Below, in pieces: positions 1,617-51,224 of a DNA stretch of 64,000 bases. Source of the stretch: Gordius sp. MW1. Its lineage: Eukaryota; Nematomorpha; Gordioida; Gordea; Gordiidae. A model generated the notes under the pieces. The model was given only the letters and a program-made list of their open reading frames with translations, made no database searches and was not told the DNA's origin. The translations under genes and the position numbers were made by a program. Location: positions 496,001 to 560,000 of the forward strand of contig OZ038527.1 of the NCBI GenBank assembly GCA_964036665.1, written 5' to 3'. Position 1 is the first letter of the stretch; every line of letters begins with the position of its first letter.

Positions 1617-4333
1617 AGGCTGACCGTAAAACGGGATGTGAATCTGTTGATTTGGACCGATTGCATAATTGCATCCCGGTAGATTGTTCGGTAAAGTATG
1701 TCGGTCATAGAAATCATTTCAACGCGCACGCTAAAATGTGTGAAAAAGTTCCTATTTGTTCCAATCAAGGAGGACCTGGAAAACAGCACATAGTAACATA
1801 ATGCTTTGATCACATTCATATGTTTTAAGATCACTGGAGTAGCAGCGATTTGGAATAGAGGGGGGAGGGGGAACGATGTTTTATTGGGATTTGACTAGAA
1901 TTTACTAAAAATTAAAATAAAACTTGAAGTAGTGCGTCTCCTGCCTCCCCTTTACAAAGCCTTTGTGGTGTCCATATGCATTTCAAGATCCAAAAGTCAA
2001 AACAGGCGTCTTTTATTTTAGTATAGTTTACCCCAGAAGTGTAAGTTCTTATGTTAAGTGACAATTAAAAACTTATGTTGGAAGTTTTTTGAAATTATTT
2101 GTTAGGAGAGAAGACATGTGCCTGAATTTTAAATTCCGCATCTTATAAAAACCGTTTGTTTTGAAATTAAAAAATAATAATTATAACAAAAAAAATTGAA
2201 TCCAATTATTAATTATTGTTATATTATTATTAACATATATAGCTATCAATGCTAGCTATGACTATTGACTATGATACCGTATCATAGTCAATAGTCATCT
2301 ATTTAAAACCCTTAATTTATAAAAACATTTGAGTGTCAATGTAAGGCATGTTCTAACTAATTTAAAATAGTAATTAGGCTAGCAATAGACAATTTCATTT
2401 AGCCACATACGTGTAAACACATCGAGAGTAAATTGACTAAAATTAATGTATTAGAAATTAGAACATACAACAAAAAGGTTCACAACTACTGCACCTTTTT
2501 TTAAAAAGAAATGTATTTAAACCGAAAACTTTTGATCTTATTGCATGTTATAAAACTTATATAAATTGGTAATTATTCATGTAAATGGTTAGAGCTTATG
2601 TTTAATTAAAAATTTGCTTTAATTAGTATTATGATGCCAGCTGTAACTGCTGCAAAGAATTGTCACAGTCGTTGGACGAGATGGAAATGATGACCCTTGT
2701 TAAAACTATTCAAGATTCGGCCCATCAGATACATGAGATGAGCGATTGGCAGTCTAATTATCCCAGAGTGGTAATAAATTGCCATGATACTACCACTAAT
2801 GTTAATTAATTGTTAATGATATAATATTATTATTATTATTTAACCTAGTTTTTTCATCAATAAATTTTTATGGGTTTAGCGTTAAGTTTCGATATTGATT
2901 CTCGGGTGAAATAAACTTTTTGAAAATTTAAATCATGTAATTCAACAGAAACTTGTAAAGTGCATACATGGAATCGAAATTTTTGGTGGCCTAAGCTGCG
3001 ATTGTGATGATAAGTGGACAACTTACCCAATTGATTCAAGAAATATAATTCCTGGGAGAGATGTCATAAACATGTGTGACATTCCTGTAAGCAATTACAC
3101 AACTACCCTGGCACCTCCACTTTTCCATACTATGTCAGGACTTCAACCTAAAGGTAATTTGGATGCGGTGGGAATGATGGATAAAGTAAATAGCATCGTA
3201 TTTGAGCCCTTAACAACCCCATGGCGTCAGAATTCGACATTTAAAACGACTTATAAACCTCTTACCAGTACAATCCCCGTCTCAGCCTGTCCCTGTGGGC
3301 CTGGTAGTAAGATCCCGAAAGAAATATGCTCATGTCCAGCTGGTTTCGCGGCGATGATTCCCAAACAGTTGATTCCCGAAATTATGCAAATGTATGGGGA
3401 AAGTGGTCAAAATTCAAATTCAAAAGTTAGCGCTAAAATCAAAACCATCATTGCCAGCATAAAGGGTTCCAAGTCTCACCCAATCAACGGCCTAACTACA
3501 ATCTCTGGCATAACAGTTTCCAGCAAAGATGCTTCTACAGAGAAAAATAAAATTCACATAGCCTTAGCTATAGTTAATATTATACAACTATATGAAATAT
3601 ACTTTTATTTACGCAAAGCTGTTGATCAAATATTTTTATAAATATCATAAGGTATTTGTCATACTGCTTATAGTTACGGCCGTTTTGGCTTACTTCAATT
3701 GGGCCAAGTATTTTGGGACACCGGCTGAAAAGGAAATGTTGCTAGGTAAGATGCATTATTTCAATTTCCAGAAAAAAACAATTTTGCTTAATTTTTAATT
3801 TTCTGTATTTCTATAATCTTAAAGCTAAGAAAACTATTTCACGCCAATATGGAATTGTCAAACAAGATTGTGCTGCCCTGCAAGATGACCACCTAGAATT
3901 AAAAAATGGAGATTTAATTGTGGAATTAGGAAACGTAGAAAAGGCAGGCTACATGACGGTACAATATAACTAATATAAATTACTTACAACTAATTCATTT
4001 TTTATTAAACTGTTTCTCGTTTATTTTCTAATCCAGACAAAAACTTTAAGAAAAGTTAACAATTCGATTTCTGTATAATAATTACTTGTGCAGGGAATAT
4101 CATTGCGGTTGAATCGGAAAGGCATATTCCCTAGCAAGATCGTAGAAATCAAAAGTGACACAAATGCTACAGTGGAGGCCTATTATAAAAATCCCCCAGC
4201 CCCTGCTCCTATACAAGTTGCACCCATTTCAGCAGAGATTAAAGGAACGAATGAAACTAAAATTGAACCCGTTATTAAGGCGCCGGAACAGCCTGTCCCC
4301 CCGTTAATTGATTTGGGACCAATCGCGAAATAA
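1617..4333 (+). CDS. single-pass membrane protein with Cys-rich ectodomain and cytoplasmic SH3-like domain (5' end not found)
   Basis: Six exons join in phase: 1617-1792, 2627-2770, 2949-3572, 3652-3745, 3825-3958 and 4094-4333 (TAA). They give about 470 residues without the N-terminus. The first three exons encode a Cys-rich, probably extracellular region (C-I-P-V-D-C and S-C-N-C-C clusters, then ACPCGPG and CSCPAGF) with Thr/Pro-rich stretches. A 22-residue hydrophobic segment (IHIALAIVFVILLIVTAVLA) is created exactly by the 3572/3652 splice. Next comes an SH3-like fold: CAALQD stands for ALYDY, LELKNGDLI for the acidic RT/GD strand, and KGIFPSKIVEI for G-L-F-P-S-N-Y-V. The last about 40 residues are Pro-rich (PPAPAPIQVAP, APEQPVPPL). 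Type I topology and a signalling or adaptor role are inferred. A signal-peptide exon must lie upstream of 1617 but was not identified. I do not recognise a named orthologue. Confidence 0.7.
2258..2298. repeat. perfect 19-bp inverted repeat, 3-nt loop
   Basis: ATGACTATTGACTATGATA, then CCG, then its exact reverse complement, in the 834-bp intron between exons 1617-1792 and 2627-2770 of the SH3-like gene. Such a near-perfect hairpin is unlikely by chance and may be a fold-back footprint or a structured RNA element. No function is evident. Confidence 0.9.
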
Positions 4334-5038: not shown

Positions 5039-10319
<5,281 letters not shown>

Positions 10320-15310: not shown

Positions 15311-15536
15311 CACAATGCCAATCGTCCATAATGCCAATGCTTTAGACCGCCAATGGCTTAACCAATCAAAATTAAGGGGTAGGGTTAGGGTTAGTGTTAG
15401 GGCTAGGGTTAGGGAATATTATAAGTACAATTAGTACACATGGATATAATATAATCATTATAATAGAATTAACTGTATAATGAGCTATTACTTAAAAATA
15501 ATACAGTCATTGGCATTGTGGATGATTGGCATTATG
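15311..15536. mobile_element. 226-bp MITE-like element carrying TTAGGG-like repeats, upstream of the La-related gene
   Basis: The left arm CACAATGCCAATCGTCCATA (15311 on) and the right arm ending at 15536 match as 29-bp inverted repeats with about three mismatches. Between them lies a short imperfect telomere-type tract (GGGTAGGGTTAGGGTTAG at about 15377). It sits about 70 bp upstream of the La-related start codon and so may overlap that promoter. No transposase is encoded. Confidence 0.55.
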
Positions 15537-15604
15537 AATGGGATTCGTATAAATTTGGGGTGACTATGGTAACAACATAAACTAATAAAACTATAGACTG
15601 CCAA

Positions 15605-15996
15605 GATTCAGTTGCATTTGACAAAAAAGCAAAAAACAAATAAATGTCTACGAAAATGCATTTGTCGATTGAAATGTGTGCATTTAACCCTAACCCTAAC
15701 CTAACTAAAACCACGACCTAAAACACTAACCCTAACCCTAACCCTCCTGACCAATCTTGATCTGACTAATTTTTGTTTTGTAGTTGAGAAACCTAAGCAT
15801 TATCAATAGATCCATAATTTGGATAATCTATTATGAAGATAAGATATAATAATTATAAACATTACTTGTATGGGGAATGTGGTCATAATTTCTTGTTATA
15901 ATACAGTTTTCGTCTCTGTAAACCCCTCTCGAGGAGCATTTTCGTTAAATATTCATAGACATTTCATAGACATTCATAGACTTTTGTCAGTTGATT
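15605..15996 (+). repeat. left terminal inverted repeat of the MULE, with TTAGGG-type tracts
   Basis: Matches 23320-23101 in reverse complement. It contains CCCTAACCCTAACC blocks at about 15688-15745. An extra block of about 160 bp (about 15745-15905) is absent from the right copy. Confidence 0.75.
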
Positions 15997-17525
15997 TTTT
16001 GTCGAATAATTATATACGGACGATTCCAGTCGAAAAGACAAAGCTGTAAAAGGCAAAGTAAATGTACGTATCACACTATATATTAAAAATATCATATGAT
16101 TTTATTAAGTATGAACAATAAAACTATTAAAAAGGTATACATTTATATTTTATTGTTATATTAGTTAAAATAAATATAATAAATTTGCTATGTGTACTAT
16201 TGTATATAATTATTTAAGTTAACATTATAGATTATTGTTAAAATCGCAAAAACACGTTCATAATATTACGATATTCTATCATGCTATAGTTTATGAAGTA
16301 ATAGTAGGTTATCTTGTTCCATTCCTTAGTTAAAAAAGGTAAGAGGAGCCTTTTAATGTAAAGCACAATGCCATGGAAAAAGTGGTGGAAGCCAACTTTT
16401 TTCACTAAGCATTGATTAATAGATTGCTCACTAGACTGCTCTGCCTTATAAAAGCACGTCTGCTATTTATAAAACAAATAAATTTTAACATTTTTATTAT
16501 TTTAAGACTAAATATACATAATATAATTTAAAAGCATTATTTAATTAGAAATTGTTAGAAGCTAATCGCACAATCTTAGGAAATAGTTTTAAAAAACATT
16601 ACTTGAATAAAACAATTGATAAACCTTCACTAGCAAATCCTTTTTTTACATTCATAATTTTTTTTATTGTGAAATAGAGGTTTATTTCCTAATAATATAT
16701 AAATTTAGAAAAAAAATTTGAATGAATAATATTGTTAATTGAAATAACAAATTAGCATAAATAAAATGTTATTGATTTAAAATAAGATATCTTTAGTTAA
16801 TTTATGCAAATACATTTTAAAGTTTTATTTGAAACATTAAAATTCAAGGTATTTGACTATAACATTGGATTTATATACAAGAATCACACCTGTTTAACAT
16901 ATCTAATGGTCAATTGTCCACCCCTACCTTCTATATTAACTCATTCCAATCAGCTAAACTTAGATCTTCCCTCTTTCTCACTTACTCTTTAAGTTAGCTA
17001 ATATACTCCTTTAAATGAATTGCATATTTTAAATAACAATGACATTATGTTCAAAACAACTACCTTAAGGCTATAAAATTATTAATGGCACATTAAATTT
17101 ATACATGGTTTTTAACAGTATTAAATAGAAAAGGTTAATTAACAATAAAATATAAAAAATGGGCAAAATCATTATTCATGTTAATTTGCCATCTTTTTTT
17201 TCTGACTGACGAGCCAAGTATAGGTTTAAACGACAATACTGATTTTGATTAAAAACAATAAACATTTGGTCAAAAATTTATTATATTAATTTTCACAAGG
17301 CTCTTTATTAATGAATCAAATAAGTTATGCTAAAATTAATCATTTCATATTTTCTGTTCCTGTAACAGACTTATTTTTCTTGATTAATATGTACCATATT
17401 AATATTCATCATTTTTTGTAGGGCTCATAGTTGCTAATAAAACAATGAGTATTTACAAAATATAAAATAAGTTACAATGGTCTGTTCCTTGTACGCTGTG
17501 GCAAGCATCTAACATAAGTTGTGCA

Positions 17526-18272
17526 TCATTTAGAGAACTTTAAAGATGTTTTTAAACATTCAAAAAAATAACTTTGGGGCATATGCATACTGGCTGGCAC
17601 AGATATATTAGAGGCCCAAACCTCGCCTCACACAATCAATATAAATCTAATATAAAGTTACATAAGGGAGTATATATCTGGGATTGCACAGGTATATTAG
17701 AGGTAAAAACATCACCTAATACAGCAATCAATATAATTATGACATAAAGTTACTTGACAACATTCTACTATTTTTGAGCATTGATCTAAAATTATCAATA
17801 GGACTACAAAGATTTATAATGTGATTAATTGACAAAAAATTACTTTGAATATTTGACCAATTTGCATAATATTTACTTGGAATGGATGAGATATATGAGG
17901 TGAAATGGGATGCCAAGATTGAACTATTAGCATCTTCACTTGTTTGATGTGGTATTTGTATTTACAACTATAAAATTTAAACCAATGTGCATAATATTTA
18001 CTTGAAATGGATGAGATATATGAGGTGGAATGGGATGCCAAGATTGAACTATTAGCATATTAACGAATATTAGAGATGTCATTCAATATACTTTGATGTG
18101 GTATATTGAGATGCTCTTTGGTCACCAAAAATGAATTTGCATATTTTATAGCCCTCCCAGGACATTTTTTATTTCTACAACGCAGGTAAATTTGAGAATT
18201 TTTTCCTGTTTTATATTTGGTGTAATGATAATTATTAAAACTATAAATAGGTTGATTTTTTTGAGTTAACAT
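17526..18272 (-). CDS. small FLYWCH zinc-finger protein encoded in the MULE element
   Basis: Proposed exons 18272-18092, 18048-18002, 17933-17877, 17715-17662, 17626-17591, 17537-17526 total 387 nt (128 aa). The first exon is a FLYWCH domain: YSFNNYHYTKYKTGKN, then YLRCRNKKCPGRAI, with the closing H-x-H replaced by EHLNIPH. This mirrors the first exon of the neighbouring transposase gene, including the donor position after PH-(K/Q). The following short exons are near-identical duplicated units (SWHPIPPHISHPF and SWHPISPHISHPF; PLIYLCNP and PLIYLCQP). No DDE catalytic domain follows. It may be a DNA-binding accessory or repressor, or a 5'-half duplicate of the transposase. The short 3' exons are open in more than one frame and are the weak part. 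Confidence 0.45.
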
Positions 18273-18334
18273 GTTATTCGGAATTTAAAAATTTGAAGTT
18301 GGCGCTAAATATCGACAAATTTGGTGATCTTCTT

Positions 18335-18352
18335 GGTGATCTTAAGATCACC
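18335..18352. promoter_or_regulatory. 18-bp perfect palindrome 63 bp upstream of the small FLYWCH gene
   Basis: GGTGATCTTAAGATCACC, preceded by another direct copy of GGTGATCTT at about 18323-18331. Placement just upstream of the minus-strand start at 18272 suggests an operator-like or dimer-binding site. This is inference only. Confidence 0.4.
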
Positions 18353-18589
18353 ATTTGCCTTTAAAAACTTTGCCTTTACAAACGAAACGATACGGACTGC
18401 CGAACATCTGATTTTTGCATTGAAACTTAGATTCGGGTACATCCAGTCTAATTTTTGTATGCATGAATCAAAAATTCGGATCATATGAAATATTTAATTT
18501 GTACATATAAACATATGGATATTATAACATATTTTAATTATATAGTATCAAATAAATTAGATTTAATTGTTAATAATAATTAGTTAATA

Positions 18590-19220
18590 ATTAATAAACA
18601 TGTGTTACTATCAATTGGTTTAATGTGTATATATAGCATAATTATAATTAGAGTAAGGCTATAAAAAGTTATACATTTTAAATCTGTTGTAATATGTATC
18701 TTATATAACTAACATATAACAATAGTTAATGATATATATAAAATGAATAGATATTATCACTTGTGCATATTCTATCTGTTGTAATATCTATGGGATTTAA
18801 CATATAATAATAGTTATTCTATATATAAAATAAATAAATATTATCACTAATGTGTTTAATGAACAATATAGTATAAGTAAAATAACCTTAATACAATAAA
18901 ACATACTATTGTTACATTTAAAAATAAATAGTGTGTAAAATAATGTATGAAAGTAGTTAAAAAATTATGGTTACACTAACCTTTCTTATTTGAATATATC
19001 TACTTGGAATTATATCGTTACCTAGGAAAGAATTTAACCTTCTAGGTAATTTGAATAAAGCAACTCGCTCATCAGTTACCTAGGCAAAAACGTAACCTTT
19101 ATTATTTGAATATATAAACTCGATCATTGGTTACCTATTCATACAACTTAACCTTTATTATTCGAGCATTCACAAACCTCACTATTCATATATCTTAACC
19201 TTATTATTTGACCACTAATT
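18590..19220. repeat. imperfect tandem repeats in the spacer between the two FLYWCH genes
   Basis: Within the 18273-19962 spacer, 18590-18870 has repeated ACATATAATAATAGTTA / AAATAAATAAATATTATCAC units. 18970-19220 has three to four imperfect units of about 60 bp built on GGTTACCTAGGCAAAAACGT and CCTTTATTATTTGAATAT. No convincing gene was found in this spacer. Confidence 0.5.
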
Positions 19221-19962
19221 ATAATTTAAATAACCCCGATAGTTGTGTATATAAACAAGACGTTTTAAATAAATTCATTCACTTGAATCATTTGTAGAGA
19301 ACATATTTCTCTACAAAAGTTAGGATAAATTTTTAATAGTTCTTGTTAGGTTATGTTAGAATTAGCAAGAATCAACTTAGACAATTTATTTGTATAAAGT
19401 TAGCTGATATAGGATTTAATTATTGATAATAAACATAATTATGTCCTAGTAAACTTTTATTGCCATATTTATCTTTAGTATCGGGAAACTTAAATGAGTA
19501 TCGCTGATCTGTTAAGTATTTAAAGGTAATTAAAATTCCCTTGCGTTACTTTTATAGAGCTTTCTTATATTTAAAACGTGAATATTATATATGCCATTTT
19601 TTAATATATGCCCAGTAGTATTAAAAGATTATTTAAAGCCGTTCCAAACATATTATATGTTGGAACTTATAATAGCAGCAAAAGTAATTCAAATTATCAT
19701 TTTGACAAAAGACATATGGGCAAAAGATTTTTTAGAGCGTGAAATTGAAACGTTTAATAATAAAGATCATTTACTATTGGCATGTAACCAATATAGTAAA
19801 GACTTGCCAAAATAGTTGGTGCGATGATATAATTTTCCTTAAATATACAATTAAGTCTAATAAATAATATAAGATGGTCTTTGAGTAAATATAAAACACA
19901 TGCAGCGCGAAATATTAACATATTTTCAAGCTTGTATTTAAAAATTAAACAAATTTTATTTA

Positions 19963-22510
19963 TTATTGTAAATCAATTTCATCATATAACGGGGCATCGT
20001 GATTTTGTAAGTGCATATAATTAGAGATGGCATCAACATATGGAAATAGGGGCATAGGGTTAGATACATTTGTATATTGAGCTATTAGGCGATTTATATT
20101 ATAATTTATAGAAGCGTATTTTTTATTTGTTTCATACACTCTCTTGCCCTGAGAGATGTGTAGCAAATCAACATTCGTTTTTTCTTGCAGGTCTTGCAGG
20201 AAATCAACAAACACGTATATAGTAGGGTGGGTTTGTTTAAGCCCACTTCTAAGGGCATTATGAAACCCTTCCAGGTGGTTGTTGGTACGGGGCCCCTCTG
20301 CATCGAGCCTTTGCCACATATCATAGGGGAACAAGGGGTCCCTCCCAAGCCCAATCCAGGTATTGTGGATGTACAAAAAAAAATTCTCAATTTCTCTATC
20401 GCCGCGCACATTGGGCTGGACCATGCAAAGGGTCATGACATCACGAATGTGCCCCCTCTTCACAAATGGCAAAGCTAGAAGACGACGCACGCTGCGCCTG
20501 AAATCAGCATTTGATGAATAAAGATTCTTCAGTTTGCCAGACCCAGCGTGTCGATAGATCGCCTGGCCAAAATGAAACATGCAACCTAAAAATTATATAA
20601 ACAAAACATTAAATTTTACCCTTTATAATAATATTAGGGAAACAGGCTTCCAAGGCCCCTATGCTTGCCCGTTCAAAATCCACTTGAGCATAGTTCGGGG
20701 CGAAAACTAGCTGCAAGCTGTTACAAATCTGAATGAGTTTCTTAAACACTTTTTTATAGGTCTCTTCTGTTTTATCTGGCAGAAGAGTGTAAACTACAGG
20801 AATCATATGATCCCGGTAGTACGAGTGAATTGTAAAAATCTAAAAACAACGTTACGGATATATTATAAAAATGTAAATACTTGAGTAAAATGTTGAGGGC
20901 AAGTTTTAAACGTACCATCACAATAAAAATTATGAGATTCACACATAATATTTAGGAGGTCAACTGTCCCAATAAACATTCTATTATCCTCGTTCGATAG
21001 CAAGAAGTTTTCGCCACCATGAGTATTGAAATGATGCGGCTTAAGGATAATGTCGTCATTATCTCCAGGCGTGTCGTACCTCAATGGATCCATTTTTTTA
21101 AGTTTTTTTTTCACCGACCTTAAAAGTGGGGTGGATTCGGGATGGTCCCTGAGGTCGGGATTTTCTCTAAGCCTCTCCGCTATTACTTTGTAATATAACT
21201 TGCTTATCCTTTCTTTAGGGTCATTCAGAACCGCATTTTTTAATGAAATGTTTGTGATTATTTTTTCGAATTCCCCAATAGGGGGCGCGTGATTATGGGG
21301 ACGCATTTGAGAAATAATTCCTAAAACCTCTTTTGCTCTGCCAGAACATGAAAGTTTACGGCATCGGTAGTAAACGGTACCATTCTTTTCCATATTTTTA
21401 CGGTAAAGATAGTTTTCAAAATAAAGCAATGTTCCATTGTTTGACGGCAAAAACTCGGGAGCATTGACTAAAAACTGTGATATAATTTACATTAAAAGAA
21501 TATTACTTTGGTTATTTGTCTGGATTATTTGGAAAGCATCCAATAATATTTGAGCATCTTCAAGAGAACCTTACATTTATACATTAAATCCTTTAAATGA
21601 TTAACTTTACTTGATGTAGGACTAACGTTATCAAGTGTTGATTCAGTCAGTATGTTTATTGGCCCTTTATTAAAAATTAAATATATTTGATATATTTTTA
21701 CTTGAAAAAGACATAATATTATTTGAGATATTATTATCAATTGTCATGAAAGGTAGAGAGGCTTGTCCTATAAAAATATATAATTCACAATATATTTAAA
21801 TTTAAGGAGCATATAAGCTTGAAGTACCTCTAATAGTTTGAGGATTTATTGCACTTTGTGTAATAGATGTATTACCTATTAAAAAAAATTAAATTTCAGA
21901 TAATATTTTAATAAATACTAGGTGAGGGTGTATATAAGCTTGAAGTACCTCTAATAGTTTGAGGATTTATTGCACTTTGTGTAAAAGATGTATTACCTAT
22001 TAAAAAATTAAATTTCAGATAATATTTTAATAAAGATTACTAGGTGAAGGTGTATATAAGCTTGAAGTACCTTTAATAGTTTGAGGATTTATTGAATTTG
22101 CTCGTACACGATTTATAAAACCTAAAATAGTTCATCTAACGACTAAACTATTTACTTACAGGAAATATTTTCCATGTTAAGTGTTTCCAGTGGTGACCTA
22201 GAAACTACTAGTGATGTAGGTGCTTCAATTGGATTGATTTGTATACAAGTCTCATTTGTATTTATTTTGGGATAGGCTAAATACACCATAAGAAAAAAAT
22301 TATTATAAATATACTTTTGTGAGGAATATCTGAGTGTTCTTGGGTTATATGGAAATCATGGTTTTGGTATATGCCTCGTCCTTGGCATTTCTTTGTTCGG
22401 CACTTAAAATAAAGTTGGAATTTTTTCCCAACTTTAGCTTGGGTATATTCATATTCCCCTAAGACTAAAATTGGGTTTTTATTTTGAGTTAATTTGAATT
22501 CGATGGGCAT
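19963..22510 (-). CDS. intact-looking FLYWCH-MULE transposase (11 exons, 690 aa)
   Basis: Exons: 22510-22315, 22276-22160, 22121-22071, 21996-21949, 21875-21828, 21767-21702, 21664-21611, 21569-21507, 21467-20881, 20839-20620, 20585-19963. They sum to 2073 nt with one terminal stop. Exon 1 is a FLYWCH finger (YFKCRTKKCQGRGIY, then HITQEH). Exons 2-8 form a linker of short exons joined in phase 1. Exon 9 has a second FLYWCH (YYRCRKLSCSGRAKE, MRPHNH) and the first catalytic Asp (FYCDGTFKTCP). Exon 10 has IPVVYTLLPDKTEETYKK and the second Asp (AQVDFERA). Exon 11 has CMFHFGQAIYR and the Glu helix (NNHLEGFHNAL). DDE residues as in MULE transposases are therefore all present. Cut-and-paste transposition of the surrounding element is the inferred role. 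Further 5' exons upstream of the ATG cannot be excluded, since the frame is open back to an acceptor-like CCACAG at about 22550. Confidence 0.82.
21828..22121 (-). repeat. three tandem units of about 120 bp, each carrying one symmetric mini-exon
   Basis: Units share TATAAGCTTGAAGTACCT and AGTTTGAGGATTTATT. Each contains a phase 1-1 mini-exon of the transposase: 22121-22071 (51 nt), 21996-21949 (48 nt), 21875-21828 (48 nt). The last two encode NTSITQSAINPQTIR or a near copy. The first ends in SINPQTIK. Being multiples of three, copies can be added or skipped without a frameshift. Confidence 0.8.
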
Positions 22511-22570
22511 ATCGAATATAACAGTGGGAATTAGAGCTGTGGTTTGTGCTATATATATAAAAATATATTA

Positions 22571-22987
22571 AATATTAATAAGACATAATTGTATTGTGTT
22601 TAAAAGGCATACTTTTAATGTAGTTAAAAATATTGTAAGTAATTTTGCCCTAAACACATTTAAAAAGAAATATTTTGATATGATAACTGAGAAATTTTGA
22701 CAGATAAACTTACAGCAGTTCAATTTGAAATCTTAAATGTATAGTAATCATAAATCAATATCCCAGAGTTTTTAAATTTGTATCATAAGCAACACAAAAA
22801 TATAATAAATAAAATTAAATATTAATTAGACATAAATGTAAAATAATTAAAATGCATACTTTTAATGTAGTTAAAAATATTGTAAATAATTTTGCCCTAA
22901 ACACATTTAAAAAGAGATATTTTGATTTTGATATAATAACTGAGAAATTTTTACAGATAAACTTACAGCAGTTCAATTTGAAATTTG
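22571..22987. repeat. tandem duplication, two units, upstream of the transposase start
   Basis: 22571-22738 and 22817-22987 are near-identical, sharing ACTTTTAATGTAGTTAAAAA and AAACTTACAGCAGTTCAATT. They lie between the transposase ATG and the right terminal repeat. They may be 5' leader or upstream exons, but no convincing open frame was found. Confidence 0.7.
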
Positions 22988-23012
22988 TCGCTTCGAAAAA
23001 GTCTCACGAAAA

Positions 23013-23032
23013 AGTCTCACGATCGTGAGACT
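23013..23032. promoter_or_regulatory. 20-bp perfect palindrome near the right end of the MULE
   Basis: AGTCTCACGATCGTGAGACT, with a further direct copy of GTCTCACGA at 23001-23009. It is about 500 bp upstream of the transposase ATG, just inside the right inverted repeat. Possible transposase-binding or promoter site (inference). Confidence 0.4.
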
Positions 23033-23100
23033 TTGACCCGAAGGGCATTATACCGGTTGCCCCAAAAGGGAAACTTACGTATCGGTGCATTCGACCAAAG

Positions 23101-23320
23101 TTTAACTGACCAAATATCTATTAATGTCTACGAATGTCTATGAATATTTAACAAAAATGCTCCTTGAGAGGGGTTTACAGAGACGAAAACGTTAAGGTTA
23201 GTGTTTTACGGGGTTTTAGGTTAGGGTTGGGTTAGGATTAGATGCACACATTTTAATCGACAAATGCATTTTCGTAGACATTTATTTGTTATTTGCTCTT
23301 TGGTCAATTGCAACTGAATC
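23101..23320 (-). repeat. right terminal inverted repeat of the MULE
   Basis: Reverse complement of the left end (15605-15996). It contains GGTTAGGGTTGGGTTAGGAT at about 23219-23238 in the same position as the CCCTAA blocks of the left copy. It lacks the left copy's extra block of about 160 bp. Confidence 0.75.
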
Positions 23321-23366
23321 GAAATTTATTTAACAATCCAGGCCGTCATTACTTAAAACCATCAAT

Positions 23367-31261: not shown

Positions 31262-32022
31262 ATTTAGGCACTGAAACTTTTGATCCGATCCGATCCGAGG
31301 GGTTTTTGAAAATTTTATATCCATCCGATCCGATCCGAGTTTTTTAAAATCTAAATACGATCCGATCCGAAATTTTTAAATTAAAATTTTACGAACAGAA
31401 CTTTTTATTGATGATTAAATTCAAAATACATAAAAATAAGGTATAGCAATTTTAATAGACCTAAAATAAATATAAAATTTTATTTGACTAATTCCATATT
31501 ATCATATAAAAATAATAAAGAATCTAAATTTTCTGGTTTAATTCGGGGAAAGGAGCTACGCGTCTGCTTTAAGGAAAGGGGAGATTTGATAATTTTCGGA
31601 GTTGAGTTGAGATAGAAAGGGATGCGTGTGCTAAAAATGAAACGGGAGATGCTGATTTATCATTGACACTAGCTCCTTTCTCGCCAAACAAGAAAGTCTA
31701 GCTAGGGAAAAACGCTAGGGAAATACTGATAAATATATTAGGGTAAGTTAGGTGAGAGGTGGTAATGGGCATCAAAAATGGTAAATTAAAAAAAGAATGC
31801 AAAGATAATTATGAAAAGGTACACTAAAATTTTTTATTTAATTAATTAGAACTTATTATTGTTTATTTTAAATTTGAAAATCCGATCCGATCCGATCCGA
31901 CTAAAATAAAATGTTCATCCGATCCGATCCGATCCGACTTCCGAAATTAAAATGTTGATCCGATCCGATCCGAGTTCGGACGGATCGGATGTCGGATCGG
32001 ATTGATCCGTGCCCACCTCTAG
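31262..32022. mobile_element. hAT-like non-autonomous element with GATCCGATCC subterminal repeats
   Basis: The right end, read outward, is TAGAGGTGGGCACGGATCAA, a typical hAT-type terminus. Arrays of GATCCGATCCGA lie at about 31280-31370 and, mostly in the other orientation, at about 31880-32010. The AT-rich core has no open frame. The left terminus and the target duplication are not clear. 32023-32232 shows nothing. Confidence 0.5.
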
Positions 32023-36100: not shown

Positions 36101-38050
36101 TCATTGCAATTCAAAAGATTGATAAACATAAAATTGCAAATACGACAATATCGAGTTAAAAGGAATCGAGAAAATAGAGACTTTTTATGTGTATTTTGTA
36201 ATCGTTGTAAGAAATGTAAATAAAAATTATTGGCAAAACAGCATAATATTATTGGAGTCTTATAATCTTCTACGAAGTCTAAAGTATCTACGGAAGGTTA
36301 ACATTAACACTAATTACTCTTACTTAAAAGCATAGCGCGATGGCAATTAATTCATTAATAAGTGGCCATTTTGAAAAGGGTACATTATTTGCACCCTCAT
36401 TAAATATTAATAAAACAAAACATTTTGAAACAAACCGAAGAGCAAGGTGTTAAATAACGTTTAATTTTATGATTCATTTATGTTAACCGAAAGAGAAGGG
36501 AAAGGGGGTTGAAATGAAATCAATATCATTTTGTGTTTTGTCCAAATATGGTCGCCCCTACCTAGCAATCGTATATATTATAATCAATTATTTTACCGTT
36601 CTTTTAAAATTATAGACTAAACACGTAGATCCTAATTATCAATGATCCTTATAAAATTATTTCAAAATTTCGTAAAATGTTGCATTATCATTATTTATTC
36701 TCCTGAAAATAATCATTTACCTCCCCCTAATTTTATGCGATCCATATAGGATATATTCTACGGTTATACAAATCATGAATTTAAATACTAAAACATATTA
36801 GTTATGCTTACAAATTGAAGCTCCTTATTCTTTATCCTAAAACCTAGCAAAGTTAGATTAAAGAGTATATACACTTGACGTTGCTAATTTTAGATTACTT
36901 CTTTTAAAATCAATTGTACTTTTGTTTAACATTTCGTCCAATTAAAATGACTTATAACAATCTCTAAAATTATCAATTTATTGAGTTTGTTGGGAGTGTG
37001 GAATTAAATGAAAGGGTGCAAATTGCATAAAAATCTACGATTTTTACGAGAAATAGTTATGGAATAAATTTTTTGTCATGTTGAAGAGCTTAATTATTTT
37101 ATTAAATGAGAGATGAGTGTAAAGTAATAGACTAATTGCAATAGTTTTATGATTGATTGGATCTACGGCAACTTACGCAACAACATGAAAAGTGTCACCT
37201 ATTAATTATTACTTGTAATCAAAAATGTCGTGTTAAATTGTGTTTTAAAATTTAGTATATAATACATAACGACCATTCAATAAAAATGTAATCTCTAACA
37301 ATTTAATTTAAGCTTAAAGTTTCTGAAGGCATACTAGACATATAGGGTAAAAGGGGGTTTTATAAAAAATTAACACATTTTTAACGTATGATTATTAATC
37401 CAAAAACTTGTTTAATGATCATTTCTTTTATGATTTATGTCCTTACAGCATATTGCTAGGGAATATATGGCATGCGTGAAACATTAACAACTCGAATGGT
37501 GTATGAGTTAATGATATTATATAGAGCAAACCTCATACAACAAAATGTAAAATTATCGCAACATCTATCTGATGGCTCCCTAAGGAAAATCTGAGACAAG
37601 AATTGTCATCATAGGTGTGTATTTTATATGTGAATCGTAGTCTGAATTAAATATTAATCATCCTTCCAAATCTATGGTCAAGGAATGAACCGGACATGTC
37701 ACATTTCCGAAATGGTTAGGTAAGCACGCAAGGGAGACAAATTAATACCTAATTAACTCCTGTGATAACACATAGGGTGTTCCCATTAATACAAAAGCGT
37801 TAGCTCCTTAATATTTATTAAGTTTCGTAGACGCTTTCTCGTAATACACATTATTACATGATCCACTAGAACCTGGTTTGAACATCGACTATGAATGGAT
37901 ACTTTAAACTTCATGACTTATATTTAGCAATTCAAGCTACCGTAACAATAGGTCCTTATTAATATAAAGTAGTCACTTGCTTCAGCTTCGTTATTTAAAG
38001 CATAGAGAACAAGGGAAGATTGATTATTCCAACTACGCATTGTAGTTATA
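33160..38050. other. 4.9 kb AT-rich intergenic region upstream of GPCR 1
   Basis: No exon could be supported. The open frame at 35037-35231 starts with GTG, is Lys/Asn-rich and has no splice or homology support. A two-copy repeat (TTTTATAATCAAGGATTATA) occurs at about 34076 and 34216. A TATA-like TTATTTAAAG at about 37990 lies 60 bp before the GPCR start codon and could be its core promoter. Nothing else stands out. Confidence 0.4.
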
Positions 38051-39592
38051 ATGAATCCAAGCTCTTCGACATCGACTCAGACCTTAGACGACGATATGGG
38101 ACTAGAATTAAAAAATGCGGATTTACACCGCTTTGAAAATATCATGTCTATCACCGTTCCTACTATATTTGCCTTTATCGTGCTCATAGGAATTGTTGGG
38201 AACATTATGGTAATATTAGTGGTTAGAGGCAATACAAAATTAAAACGAAATCCTACTCATATTCTCATCATTAATTTGGCTTGCACGGATATTTTATTCT
38301 TGCTAATTTGTGTGACGGTTACCGGTGTAGGCTATAGGATGGGCGATTGGCCATTCGGAAATAACATGTGCAAGGTCGTGCAGTACCTAATTTACGTCAC
38401 GGCCTATGCCAGCATCTTTACCCTAGTCCTTATGTCGTTAGACCGATATCTAGCAGTAGCCCACCCCATTTTTAGCGTGGCTGTTCGGACTAAGACACAT
38501 ACCTACGGTGCGTTGAGCGTTTGCTGGATTCTGGTTTTGGCTATAAATGTCCCCATTTTGTTCGTTTATGAATTGCAGGCGAAAGAAATGTCGTCACTAT
38601 ACGACATCATATTTCAAATAAACGCGAATCCTAGCAACCAAATTGACACACAAATTGAGGAGTCTTTCAAAGAACCTCTTTTCAATATCACATTTTTTTC
38701 GCCTTACGAGCAAACTAACAAACATCCCTGGGCTTTAGGAAACTCACTTGATGAAAGCAATGCAGCATTAGCGGCCCCATTATATTTCAAACTCAATTTA
38801 TCGCACTCGGGCCCTACGTATCCTTACCCTTCTGATGCCTTAACGCAGCACAAAATTCGTATATGTTTGATCATCGATAAGCACGTGGAAAAAGTTATTT
38901 TTATAACGTTTTTTGCCTTTGCGTTCGTCCTACCCTTGATCCTAATATCTCTTCTCTATGTGGCCATGTTGCGTAGCTTATGGACAAAATCTTTGGCTAT
39001 GAAAGGGGCGCGAAAGAATCCTCCCTCAAATTTAGATGTCAACCTGAGGGGTAGATACCGTACCGAGGGCGTAACTTCTCGCAGGCGCATAACTAAGTTG
39101 GTTATTACCATAGTGAGTGCCTTTGCACTCTGTTGGCTTCCTATCCACATGGTGCTCCTCCTAATTCACGTGGCTGGATTTCACGATAAAATGATTCTTA
39201 TTGTTCAAGTGGCTTGTCAATGCTTGGCCTACACTAATTCTTGCATAAATCCCATCTTGTATTCCTTCCTTTCGGACAATTTTAGAGACGGTTTTTTCAA
39301 GCTCGTCATGTGTTCCAGGCGTGGCTTCGCTCATCAAAGAAGGAACCAAAAGGATTACATAGACAATCCACAATTAGTGAAAAATGCCAAAAAAGTACAG
39401 CCTAAGAGTGCTACGGATCAGGAAAATTGGGGATATGAGCTGTTGACTAAACCCACAACTGAGACCACCAATAGTAACAAACGCATAATAACATTCTTGG
39501 AAGGCAACGGGCCAGATCATTTTTACACCGTGCATGTGAATGTAGAATGTGATGAACCGGCAATCGTAATTGAAAATCATGGGTCCCAGTAA
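38051..39592 (+). CDS. rhodopsin-class peptide GPCR, allatostatin-A/galanin receptor type, with very long second extracellular loop
   Basis: Single-exon 513-aa seven-helix receptor. Landmarks: GN in helix 1 (N51), LACTD in helix 2 (D80), WPFG loop, Cys107, the helix-3 DRY at 131-133 (SLDRYLAVAHP), CWLP in helix 6 (361-364), NPILY in helix 7 (400-404), FLSDNFRDGF after helix 7. The wording around WPFG...YLIYVTAYASIFTLVLMSLD is that of allatostatin-A/galanin receptors, which couple neuropeptide binding to G proteins at the plasma membrane. Oddity: extracellular loop 2 runs from about residue 175 to 281 (about 105 residues, with an N-I-T and an N-L-S glycosylation site) before the conserved Cys at 272, several times the usual length. 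The loop reads through in frame with no splice signals of an intron that would remove it cleanly. The ligand is inferred, not shown. Confidence 0.88.
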   Translation: MNPSSSTSTQTLDDDMGLELKNADLHRFENIMSITVPTIFAFIVLIGIVGNIMVILVVRGNTKLKRNPTHILIINLACTDILFLLICVTVTGVGYRMGDWPFGNNMCKVVQYLIYVTAYASIFTLVLMSLDRYLAVAHPIFSVAVRTKTHTYGALSVCWILVLAINVPILFVYELQAKEMSSLYDIIFQINANPSNQIDTQIEESFKEPLFNITFFSPYEQTNKHPWALGNSLDESNAALAAPLYFKLNLSHSGPTYPYPSDALTQHKIRICLIIDKHVEKVIFITFFAFAFVLPLILISLLYVAMLRSLWTKSLAMKGARKNPPSNLDVNLRGRYRTEGVTSRRRITKLVITIVSAFALCWLPIHMVLLLIHVAGFHDKMILIVQVACQCLAYTNSCINPILYSFLSDNFRDGFFKLVMCSRRGFAHQRRNQKDYIDNPQLVKNAKKVQPKSATDQENWGYELLTKPTTETTNSNKRIITFLEGNGPDHFYTVHVNVECDEPAIVIENHGSQ

Positions 39593-44165: not shown

Positions 44166-46463
44166 TAGTGTTGTTAAATTGCTAACTTTAGCAATGCTAA
44201 CTATGTGCTACGCTCGAGCACAAACACTAGCTGGGTAATATGCTAACACAATGAGTGCTAAGCTAACTATTCGGTGCAATAGTTTTAACAGTAGCACGTA
44301 AAAATGCTCGAGAGGTTAGTCGATAGCAGCCAAATCTGTCAAAAAATTTAGCAGGAGCTCGAGCAGTAAATTCGAGCAGATAGTAGATTGAATTGCTTTT
44401 GTTAAACTATTTTAGTTACTTACAATATTTGCTCATGGTATATTATAAAGTTATTATATTATAGTTTTATAAGAAATTAAGCATGTTGAGCATAAATGAT
44501 GGATTGCACGGTAATAAGATGAGATTGTATATTTGATTTTTACTTGACATGTTATTATATACATTTTGAGTTTTTAGGTATAAATATTTTGTACAGGTGG
44601 TTAAATAAATATATATGGGGTAAATGTCATAATCTATGTTTATGATGCGATTTAAATTTTTTTTCAAATTGTGACTCACTAAGAACTTAAAAAATGTTTT
44701 TCACATTTGAAATTAAGATTTTTAAAAGTTTAGCGGTCGCCCAGGTAACAAATGTCATAATCTATGTTTGTGATGCGATTTAAATTTTTTTTTCAAATTG
44801 TGACTCACTAACCGCTTAAAAAATGTTTTTCACCTTTGAAATTAAGATTTTTAAAAGTTTAGCGGTTGCTCAGGTGACAAATGTCATAATCTATGTTTAT
44901 TATGGGATTTAATTTTTTTTTTCAAATTGTGACTCACTAAGAGCTTAAAAAATGTTTTTCACCTTTGAAATTAAGATTTTTGAAAGTTTAGCGGTCGCCC
45001 AGGTGACAAATGTCATAATCTACATTTATGATGCCATTTAAATTTTTTTTCCAAATTGTGACTCACTAAGAGCTTAAAAATGTTTTTCACCTTTGAAATT
45101 AAGATTTTTGAAAGTTTAGCGGTCGTAGATTATGACAAATGTCATAATCTACATTTATGATGCGATTTAAATTTTTTTTTCAAATTGTGACTCACTAAGA
45201 GCTTATAAAATGTTTTTCAACTTTGTAATTAAGATTTTTGAAAGTTTAGCGGTCGCCCAGGTGACAAATGTCATAATCTACATTTATGATGCGATTTAAA
45301 TTTTTTTTTAAATTATGACTCACTAAGAGCTTAAAAAATGTTTTTCACCTTTGAAATTAAGATTTTTGAAAGTTTAGCGGTCGCCCAGGTGACAAATGTC
45401 ATAATCTATGTTTATGATGCGATTTAAATTTTTTTTTCAAATTGTGACTCACTAAGAACTTAAAAAATGTCTTTCACCTTTGAAATTAAGATTTTTAAAA
45501 GTTTAGCGGTCGCCCAGGTGACAAATGTCATAATCTTCATTTATGATGCGATCAAATTGTGACTCACTGAGAGCTCAAAAATGTTTTTCACCTTTAAAAT
45601 TAAGATTTTAACAGTTTGCCGCAGGGGTTTGTCCCAACCCCTAAACCCGCCGGGTAAAACTCGATGTTTTACGGAACCCGAACCCATTATAAAAATACCC
45701 TTAAAACCCGAACCCGATGAATACAAAATTTTCGCCATCTATAAGTAAAAATTTTTAATCGCACCTGAGCCACCGCTAAACTTTCAAAAATCTTAATTTC
45801 AAAGGTGAAAAACATTTTTTAAGCTCCTAGTGAGTCACAATTTGAAAAAAAATTTAAATCCCATTATAAACATAGATTATGACATTTGTCACCTGAGCAA
45901 CCGCTAAACTTTCAAAAATCTTAATTTCAAAGTTGAAAAACATTTTTTAAACTCTTAGTGTGTCAAAATTTGAAAAAAAAATTTAAATCGCATCATAAAC
46001 ATAGATTATGACATTTACCCCATATATATTTATTTAACCACCTGTACAAAATATTTATACCTAAAAACTCAAAATGTATATAATAACATGTCAAGTAAAA
46101 AATCAAATATACAATCTCATCTTATTACCGTGCAATCCATCATTTATGCTCAACATGCTTAATTTCTTATAAAACTATAATATAATAACTTTATAATATA
46201 CCATGAGCAAATATTGTAAGTAACTAAAATAGTTTAACAAAAGCAATTCAATCTACTATCTGCTCGAATTTACTGCTCGAGCTCCTGCTAAATTTTTTGA
46301 CAGATTTGGCTGCTATCGACTAACCTCTCGAGCATTTTTACGTGCTACTGTTAAAACTATTGCACCGAATAGTTAGCTTAGCACTCATTGTGTTAGCATA
46401 TTATCCAGCTAGTGTTCGTGCTCGAGTTTTTAGTTGAAGCTGCTTAGCAATTTAACAACTATA
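44166..46463. mobile_element. 2.3 kb fold-back hAT-type element with internal satellite
   Basis: The left end TAGTGTTGTTAAATTGCTAA and the right end (reverse complement) TATAGTTGTTAAATTGCTAA begin inverted arms of about 450-580 bp that match almost base for base (for example GTTGAGCATAAATGATGG on both). CATATTAG flanks both sides (44158-44165 and 46464-46471), a perfect 8-bp target duplication. The termini match the 202-bp MITE at 29689. The interior is a tandem array (separate entry) with a short insertion at about 45610-45740 containing ACCCGAACCC motifs. No transposase is encoded. Confidence 0.9.
44628..46015. repeat. tandem array of about 125-130-bp units, eight direct and two inverted
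   Basis: Each unit carries AAATGTCATAATCTA, TTTTTTTCAAATTGTGACTC, TGTTTTTCACCTTTGAAATT and GTTTAGCGGTCGCCCAGG. Direct units start near 44628, 44752, 44880, 45008, 45130, 45267, 45396 and 45525 (the last truncated). Two units in reverse orientation occupy about 45770-46015. Units are almost identical, implying recent amplification. Confidence 0.9.
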
Positions 46464-49418: not shown

Positions 49419-51224
49419 CTAAACATCAAAAACTCGATCTTCGTCATCGTAAGTTATGGCGTTTAATTTTGGCCGTGGCGGAAGAATGACACATTTTTCA
49501 TCAGTTGATTCTGAGCTACTATCCTTAACCTTTAAGGGTTTGGTCGTCGCAGTTTTAGATGTTAAATCAGCTGATTGATGGGCAGTTGTTTCCTCACATT
49601 CAGCCGACGGGTTCACCACGTATTCGGAGGAATCTATCAAACTAAAATCCGCGATCTCTTCGTCGAGATGGTCTTGAAACCGGGTGGCCCTTTTGGGAGT
49701 CAGATAATTTATATCACGTGACTTTAAATAGTTTAATTTGAACTTTGAATTTGACCTGAATTGACTAGTATTTGATTGAGTTAACAGGAACGATTTTCTT
49801 TCAAGTGGTAATTCTTTAAGGTTAGATACGTTCCTTATGTTTTGAGCGCCTGGCCTTTGGTTGGTGCCGCCGTTTAGGTTACGCCCGAAAAGGGCCGTAT
49901 AGAGGGGAATCTTACCAAGGATGTTACAAAAGGCCTTCCTGTAATTGTCGGACAAAAAGGCGTACAAGATTGGGTTTATGCAGGAATTCATGTAAGCCAA
50001 ACATTGTGCCGATATTTGAATAACGATGAAGACTAAGCTTTCGGGATAGTATCCAAAATGAATGATGAGAAATATGATGTTGTTTGGGAGCCAACAAAGC
50101 GCAAAGGTAACTACTACTATGGTGACCATGCGGGTAACTTTGCGCTTAGACTTTATGCTTTCGGCCGAGCGCTTAGTCCGCACTTTGGTCGTCCTTCTAG
50201 TCGCAGGTTGTTTGTGAGTGATGGCTCGGTCTAGACCATTACTAGCTACTCCTAATTCACAAGAGGTGGGGGGAGGCTGGTCTTTAAATTCCTTACCGAC
50301 TCCTCCCGTTCTCCACAACCTCTTGAGCAAGCCCAAATATAGAACTACTATTAGTGTGAGCGGCAAAACGTAAGCGAGTACAAAGAAGAGGGCATATAAG
50401 ATACGTGCTCCCTTGGTATACTCCTGTCCATCGACCGCTATAGCGCAAACAAATTTTCCCGAGGCGTAAGCATATGGTATGGAATGATATAAGTAAAGAA
50501 TAGGACTGTTGATGCCAAGAACCACGACCCAAGTTATGAGTGCGGCGCGCCAAGTATTACGTGGAACTCGTATCGAAATCGATTCCACCGGGTACACTAC
50601 AGCTAAGTAGCGATCTAAGCTCATGAGTACGAGCGTGTAGACGCTGGCGTAGGCGCACACATTTATCATGAATTGGTAGAGCTTACAAGCGGCAGTTCCG
50701 AAAGGCCAACTGAACAGCGAGTAAACGATAGCGGTAAAGGGGACGCAGACTATGATGAAGCTTAGATCGGCAACGGCTAAGTTGAGGATTAGTATGTTGG
50801 TGACGCTTTGCATCTTAGCGTTAGACAAGATGATATAAATGATCAAACTGTTACCCACGACCCCGATGAATACTATGAGCCCGAAAGCGCAGGGTACTAT
50901 GATGGAGACCACAGTTTGAACGTAAGGTATCCCTGACGCTTCCTCATCAAGTGCAACCGTTGGCGTAACTGGAGATGCTTCTACTGATACTGATGATGCT
51001 AATGAAACTTGAGTTATGGTATTACCGTCTTTTAAAGCTCTCAAAACGGGTCCCGAGCTGGAGGAGAGCCATGATAAAGGCTGGAAAGATGTCGTAGAGT
51101 TAGTTTGATAGTTAGGAACGTCAAGCGTTAAAGCGGCACGACATACATATGGGATAAGGAGGAGCGTCCAAAACCGAAGCATAATTGGTGGCATGAGCGC
51201 GCTTGAGCTAGCAGTTAACTTCAA
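49419..51224 (-). CDS. rhodopsin-class peptide GPCR, allatostatin-A/galanin receptor type, with signal peptide and long tail
   Basis: Single-exon 601-aa receptor. Residues 1-30 look like a signal peptide (MLRFWTLLLIPYVCRAA). A Ser/Thr-rich ectodomain of about 75 residues with an N-x-S/T site follows. Seven helices begin near residue 105: N125 in helix 1, D153 in helix 2, SWPFG loop with Cys180, DRY at 204-206 (MSLDRYLAVVYP), Cys260 in loop 2, a basic loop 3 (about 303-365), CWLP at 377-380, NPILY at 417-421. The tail is about 180 residues, Ser/Thr-rich. Helices 2-3 (VPFTAIVYSLFSWPFG, YASVYTLVLMSLDR) are close to known allatostatin-A receptors. It converges with GPCR 1, 9.8 kb away, and the two are probably related paralogues. 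Ligand and coupling are inferred from the family. Confidence 0.9.
   Translation of the reverse strand: MKLTASSSALMPPIMLRFWTLLLIPYVCRAALTLDVPNYQTNSTTSFQPLSWLSSSSGPVLRALKDGNTITQVSLASSVSVEASPVTPTVALDEEASGIPYVQTVVSIIVPCAFGLIVFIGVVGNSLIIYIILSNAKMQSVTNILILNLAVADLSFIIVCVPFTAIVYSLFSWPFGTAACKLYQFMINVCAYASVYTLVLMSLDRYLAVVYPVESISIRVPRNTWRAALITWVVVLGINSPILYLYHSIPYAYASGKFVCAIAVDGQEYTKGARILYALFFVLAYVLPLTLIVVLYLGLLKRLWRTGGVGKEFKDQPPPTSCELGVASNGLDRAITHKQPATRRTTKVRTKRSAESIKSKRKVTRMVTIVVVTFALCWLPNNIIFLIIHFGYYPESLVFIVIQISAQCLAYMNSCINPILYAFLSDNYRKAFCNILGKIPLYTALFGRNLNGGTNQRPGAQNIRNVSNLKELPLERKSFLLTQSNTSQFRSNSKFKLNYLKSRDINYLTPKRATRFQDHLDEEIADFSLIDSSEYVVNPSAECEETTAHQSADLTSKTATTKPLKVKDSSSESTDEKCVILPPRPKLNAITYDDEDRVFDV

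Follow-up and report, generated by a model that had tools for sequence, protein, structure and literature searches.

The window, by which we mean the whole stretch of 64,000 nucleotides from Gordius sp. MW1 analysed here, belongs to a 211.8 Mb assembly of 12 contigs, which was searched for copies. Between 15605 and 23320 it contains four insertions, every one of which has a target duplication (8-9 bp) of its own. From left to right, the order is GACTGCCAA, MITE 1, a 2.37 kb element between two ATACGGAC copies, 24 bp of target, GAAACTTA, a MULE, again GAAACTTA, MITE 2 and GAAATTTA. MITE 1 (15605-16018, minus strand) is an older, decayed and reversed copy of a short repeat, interrupted at 15737-15905 and flanked by the duplication GACTGCCAA (15596-15604) and GACTGCCGA (18395-18403). 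The 2.37 kb element (16022-18389) is a non-autonomous element, probably of the Mutator type, and its two ATACGGAC copies (16014-16021 and 18390-18397) straddle the right border of MITE 1. It is followed by a 35 bp remnant of the target repeat (18395-18429), which includes duplications of MITE 1 and the MULE. The Phantom-type MULE spans 4,640 bp on the minus strand (18430-23069) between perfect 8 bp copies of GAAACTTA (18422-18429 and 23070-23077). MITE 2 (23078-23320, plus strand) ends at GAAATTTA (23321-23328) and has the middle GAAACTTA (23070-23077) in common with the MULE; either of these two insertions may have come first. A search of the whole window with Rfam at gathering cut-offs and a tRNA scan found nothing.

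Gene model of the MULE transposase

On the minus strand of the MULE, a gene extends from an ATG at 22510 to a stop at 19963. Its ten exons sum to 2,070 nt and form an in-phase frame of 690 codons (689 amino acids and one terminal stop), with GT-AG at 9/9 introns. Splice sites were picked by eye, and exons 2 to 7 rest on that choice. The earlier note had described an intact 11-exon transposase with a 690-codon in-phase frame; frame, phase and codon number hold, while the exons are ten in number. For comparison, ten further loci (L002-L007, L010, L012, L013 and L027, of which L013 and L027 are deletion derivatives) were read exon by exon. Their alignable exon borders are mostly AG/GT. Exceptions occur in L007 (donors of exons 1 and 8, both sites of exon 2) and in L005 (acceptor of exon 6).

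Exon 1 (22315-22510) begins with the ATG and carries FLYWCH finger 1, and exon 2 (22160-22276) has splice sites that are retained in L006, L010 and L012 and lost in L007. Exons 3 (22041-22121), 4 (21919-21996; 78 nt, phase 1-1) and 5 (21828-21875) are the first, second and last mini-exons of a tandem array with a period of 121 (21804-22094), where the earlier donor site used by exon 5 is the least certain junction. They represent tandem exon-plus-intron units with phase 1 at start and end, and the unit number varies among copies: two in L006, three in L010, L007 and the window, and four in L012, with one L007 unit out of frame. Exons 6 (21702-21767) and 7 (21611-21664) of the model lead to exon 8 (20881-21467), which comprises FLYWCH finger 2 and the start of the catalytic domain with D397. 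The MULE domain with D463 lies in exon 9 (20620-20839), and the C-terminal part with E588 and the stop in exon 10 (19963-20585).

On the product, Pfam identifies MULE (PF10551, E 4.9e-12) and two stretches of FLYWCH (E 9.1e-11), which is the outcome sought from an HMM search for these two domains. Taken alone, finger 1 reaches 22.3 bits, below the Pfam cut-off of 23.6, and finger 2 reaches 27.8. D397, D463 and E588 occupy columns that are invariant in 5/5 aligned sequences (the product and four relatives), and finger 2 has two invariant cysteines and two invariant histidines in the same alignment. This is in good agreement with the two FLYWCH fingers and three DDE residues reported before. The modelled product thus has the MULE domain with D-D-E of the Mutator superfamily as well as the Phantom layout, an N-terminal FLYWCH finger joined to a MULE domain; this layout is the basis on which we call the element Phantom-type.

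Against solved structures, the sole chain that exon 8 matches at E 0.1 is the FLYWCH1 structure 2rpr (E 0.00031). Exon 8 alone yielded 96 candidates in a protein database, none of them at E 0.001, and residues 220-640 matched seven proteins at E 0.001 among 6282 candidates. Five of the seven were scanned with Pfam, and FLYWCH was found in three (P0001, P0003 and P0004), in one stretch each. These three proteins are 457-474 aa long, and their single finger aligns with exon 8. They favour an alternative in which the autonomous MULE encodes the usual single-finger transposase of about 475 aa from exons 8-10, and the finger of exon 1 belongs to an alternative product or to a small protein of its own. 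The passages on Phantom in PMC6446971, which give one or two ORFs, and the weak constraint over exons 1-7 (see below) point in the same direction. On the other hand, no methionine precedes finger 2 in the open frame of exon 8 and an upstream exon is therefore needed, exon 1 to exon 8 joins in phase, and an upstream finger recurs in relatives. For 35 of 117 related MULE exons, the nearest FLYWCH exon is found 0.4-3.6 kb upstream on the same strand; it is downstream in one and on the opposite strand in five, and for 76 the list used has none within 5 kb. The 117 exons remained from 151 genome matches once short fragments, the weakest rows and the matches of the window itself had been dropped; the neighbours came from 148 of 150 FLYWCH matches, the window's two being dropped. 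This count supports an upstream finger as a regular component of such elements, but is no proof of a single protein. Altogether, we see the single-finger alternative as possible, although the less probable reading, and regard the gene as an apparently intact multi-exon transposase of the Phantom type.

Selection, intactness and movement

Over exons 8-10, dN/dS ranges from 0.15 to 0.38 in 10/10 comparisons. Over exons 1-7 it lies between 0.21 and 1.58 in eight comparisons with few sites; it is undefined in L002 and was not computed for L004. By these values, selection is clear for the catalytic part and not clear for the linker. Among the window and the ten loci, all ten exons are open only in the window. 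Exons 1-6 are absent from L002, where exons 7-10 are open. L003 has exons 6-10 open and an upstream finger that is diverged (about 30% identity); judged on exons 6-10, it may hold another intact gene, one of a sister subfamily. A host gene that was captured from a transposon and retained by selection for a host function would likewise show low dN/dS over exons 8-10 and a frame that stays open while close copies are broken. We consider such a capture very unlikely, given that the gene is enclosed by element ends, which are flanked by a perfect duplication of 8 bp, that its family has many copies and young derivatives, and that an active transposon lineage under selection would give equal dN/dS.

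Among the matches listed, at least 13 MULE copies share an internal deletion that links about 21049 with 22258, and in at least four copies about 20480 is joined to 22567. The derivatives L013-L016 are 99.8-100% identical over 18430-21049, with differing flanks and duplications. Near-identity at different sites thus indicates recent movement of non-autonomous members. Over the same interval, the window MULE is 96.3% identical to L013-L016 and 97.1-97.2% identical to L010 and L012. Its nearest copies reach just 97% there, which, like the chance-level pairing of its own ends (see below), speaks against the main explanation given below. The recent activity proposed earlier is supported at the level of the family, by L013-L016, which are deletion derivatives with the same ends.

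As a mechanism, we propose that the spliced product, consisting of finger 1, linker, finger 2 and DDE domain, would bind the element ends, cut, and reinsert the element with cuts 8 bp apart. The protein of the window copy, or that of a sister copy, would move the deletion derivatives that share its ends, and we infer that the window copy may drive the MULE family. A more speculative idea, which we hold to be doubtful, is that the genome harbours a large lineage of two-fingered Phantom transposases with a phase-1 mini-exon linker array of two to four units, in which length changes alter the linker without loss of frame, and from which finger-1-only derivatives could yield a DNA-binding repressor. 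The frame of exon 1 is broken in L013, of the youngest derivative group, and open in L027; with its broken exon 1, L013 gives no support to a repressor role for the retained finger 1.

Borders and families of the four insertions

Ten copies of the MULE family with both ends found (window included) have the same ends. Nine of them carry a duplication of 8-9 bp, within the 8-11 bp of the Mutator superfamily, and L010 one of 7 bp; L012 was left out of this count, as its examined stretch has no right end. L010 is the one other near-full copy among the matches listed, besides many shortened ones. Upstream of exon 1 lies a subterminal tandem repeat (22553-22984) with two units in the window and more in several derivatives. 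In all three families, i.e., the MULE, the 2.37 kb element and the MITE, one end begins with GATT and the other, read inward, with CGT (CCT in the window MULE). The two ends pair better than shuffles in the 2.37 kb element (p 0.0006), in the MITE (p 0.006) and in the commonest ends of the MULE family (p 0.004, over about 22 bp). The window MULE's own ends pair no better than chance (p 0.17) and may have decayed. A second aligner setting gave 0.002 and 0.003, and 0.45 for the window MULE. The shared end pattern and the pairing suggest that all three families are of the Mutator type.

The 2.37 kb element has at least nine near-full and at least three partial further copies at 95-99% among the matches listed. 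Perfect 8-9 bp duplications flank 6/8 copies with both ends (window included) and are missing in L020 and L023, and the L026 copy is without the right end. On its minus strand, the element contains an ORF of 74 aa (18060-18284; Pfam FLYWCH, 24.5 bits), a leftover first-finger exon. At the amino acid level it is 94.5% identical to the first-finger exon in L059, a locus with a FLYWCH+MULE exon downstream. The nearest relatives of the ORF outside its own family, C2:5431042 (97%) and C1:23761170 (92%), both have a FLYWCH+MULE exon just downstream. The alignment of L059, located around C2:5431042, to the 2.37 kb element falls into two main parts, at 85.8% and 79.3%. Between them lies 1837-3380 of L059, with nearly all of the FLYWCH+MULE exon (2918-3412), and this stretch is absent from the element. 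The latter thus derives by deletion from another MULE subfamily. The ORF had been taken for a separate FLYWCH gene of the transposon, possibly a regulator. It sits in the other insertion (16022-18389), which is found on its own elsewhere, and we rejected it as a regulator gene of the MULE on account of this different insertion, which lacks the middle of L059 with nearly all of its FLYWCH+MULE exon. Across eight copies of the element, the first-finger exon shows 0-4 changes relative to the window, and one copy has an extra stop; these are too few to gauge selection. The 2.37 kb element and the MITE, as other subfamilies, would be moved by their own transposases.

Inverted repeats are present at 15605-15710/23215-23320 (90%) and 15906-15963/23133-23190 (97%). 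MITE 1 and MITE 2 are 88.3% identical; compared with 30 solo copies, MITE 1 averages 89.0% identity and MITE 2 98.8% (gaps not counted). The short MITE (23078-23320) occurs alone elsewhere, with 42 matches listed including those of the window (40 scored of 765 candidates); the true copy number is probably higher. Eight or more identical flanking bases were found in 25/30 solo copies, a count that excludes the partial copy L022. With flanks re-paired at random, which keeps about one true pair each time, a mean of 1.02 copies had seven or more matching bases (maximum 4). What had been described as matching inverted ends of one element, the apparent long terminal inverted repeats, is on this comparison of copies a pair of opposed MITEs.

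When 15560-23360 was used as a DNA query, 130 matches were listed (37 of 1762 candidates were scored), in which the blocks recur independently; among these matches the whole 7.7 kb outline occurs in the window only, which is no proof of absence. An empty-site query of 142 nt was made by joining the outer flanks with 18395-18429. Among the 41 matches that it listed (40 of 334 candidates were scored), 38 cross all of the earlier points of insertion. Their identity is 76-91%, with 91% over 23-142 in the best, and one of the 38 stops at 76. The remaining three comprise two partial matches and the right flank in the window itself. Since the matches cross the joins, the flanks and 18395-18429 belong to one older dispersed repeat. 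We take this uninterrupted target repeat elsewhere as the strongest evidence against a single element.

It is highly probable that 15605-23320 of the window is best explained by a nest of four Mutator-type insertions, with one apparently intact autonomous Phantom-type MULE among them. The sequence itself shows that the insertions have separate borders with duplications, that each family has independent copies and that the target exists uninterrupted elsewhere. A dispersed host repeat would have taken four cut-and-paste insertions of Mutator-type DNA transposons, side by side or nested. A single foldback-like Phantom MULE of 7.7 kb, bounded by long terminal inverted repeats and encoding a transposase together with a second FLYWCH protein as regulator, has in its favour the 90-97% inverted repeats at both outer borders and the composite long inverted repeats described for Phantom-like Tm1 elements in passages of PMC3169594, but is hardly conceivable with an outline found in no other listed match, outer repeats that occur solo with their own duplications and do not bound a single unit with a single target duplication, and target sequence inside next to inner blocks that each have a duplication of their own. 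The 7.7 kb transposon at 15605-23320 is thus contradicted by its separate borders and duplications, by the 35 bp of target inside and by the uninterrupted target elsewhere, and the parts claimed for it sit in separate insertions. The alignment of copies, proposed for fixing termini and duplication, bounds the MULE at 18430-23069 with GAAACTTA and does not uphold outer termini at 15605 and 23320.

Comparison with known systems

The MULE in the window is a known kind of element, and the earlier note gave a good reading of the gene inside wrong borders. Opposed MITEs beside a transposon mimic long terminal inverted repeats, and ends therefore need checking against other copies. With its open frame and its young derivatives, the corrected element of 4.64 kb offers a usable MULE system from an animal. 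The two-finger gene with its mini-exon linker would, if it is transcribed in the modelled form, be a structural variant that is not described in the literature passages compared, and the product may be an undescribed variant. A product with "two FLYWCH" found no mention in the six papers searched for it, a weak result, as most subscription papers fell outside the search. With respect to the nest, PMC3903597 reports that more than a third of the candidate coding MULEs of maize and rice involve nested insertions.

The Phantom family is described in the passages of PMC6446971 (group 20) as animal elements with a FLYWCH finger and a MULE transposase, 8-10 bp duplications, and terminal inverted repeats of 18-613 bp or none. 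The terminal inverted repeats of the window MULE may likewise be short or missing, and it shares with these elements the tandem repeats inside some members. Its model has two FLYWCH fingers and a mini-exon linker; the table in PMC6446971 gives the finger type, not the number. According to the passages of PMC5225508, Muta1 of Aedes aegypti encodes a FLYWCH+DDE transposase, makes duplications of 8 or 9 bp and is active in a yeast assay. Unlike the modelled product, its protein has 504 aa and one FLYWCH domain at residues 24-92, and its activity was assayed, whereas that of the window element is predicted. Tm1-A of root-knot nematodes, in the passages of PMC3169594, has a Phantom-like FLYWCH+MULE protein, non-autonomous and MITE-like relatives, and mostly 9 bp duplications; it differs in its 496 aa, its one FLYWCH domain and its composite long inverted repeats, which the window MULE does not have. 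The protein LOC132550676 of Ylistrum balloti (P0003) differs likewise in its length of 474 aa and its one FLYWCH finger, but it shares the FLYWCH+MULE layout with the product of the window, is about 30% identical to it, and has the catalytic and zinc-ligand columns in common.

Linker repeats and a long-frame relative of the MULE

The region of the window MULE that carries the exon 6 acceptor (21738-21801) is present once in the window, whereas two other loci of the same genome with related copies, L003 and L005, hold several additional copies of it in tandem. Judged from sequence, these repeats constitute a predicted linker array which is distinct from the array of mini-exons 3-5. A genome search for related MULE exons also returned a FLYWCH-MULE match (G000:C6:18163647-18164240, 40% identity) inside an open frame of 893 aa, much longer than the frames of the other matches listed. 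This frame may belong to a copy that lacks introns, or it may be a gene of the host.

MITEs beside other elements and tandem repeats

Adjacency of MITEs to other elements is recurrent in the genome: L037 carries a tandem pair of MITEs with GCGCCATA common to both, a MULE derivative is adjoined by one MITE at L030, and at L034 a MITE directly follows a MULE-like end. Close to the outer side of MITE 1, the window has a short telomere-like AGGGTT run (15375-15414). Further tandem repeats are 67 units of TAAA (7748-8017), short GATCC-rich arrays (31282-31370 and 31880-31973) and a 129-bp unit (44622-45552; 7.2 copies, 92% matches).

Receptor genes

Two long open frames, 38024-39592 (+) and 49419-51245 (-), represent rhodopsin-type receptors (Pfam 7tm_1), a sign that the host is an animal. 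The nearest solved structures to the latter are galanin receptors.
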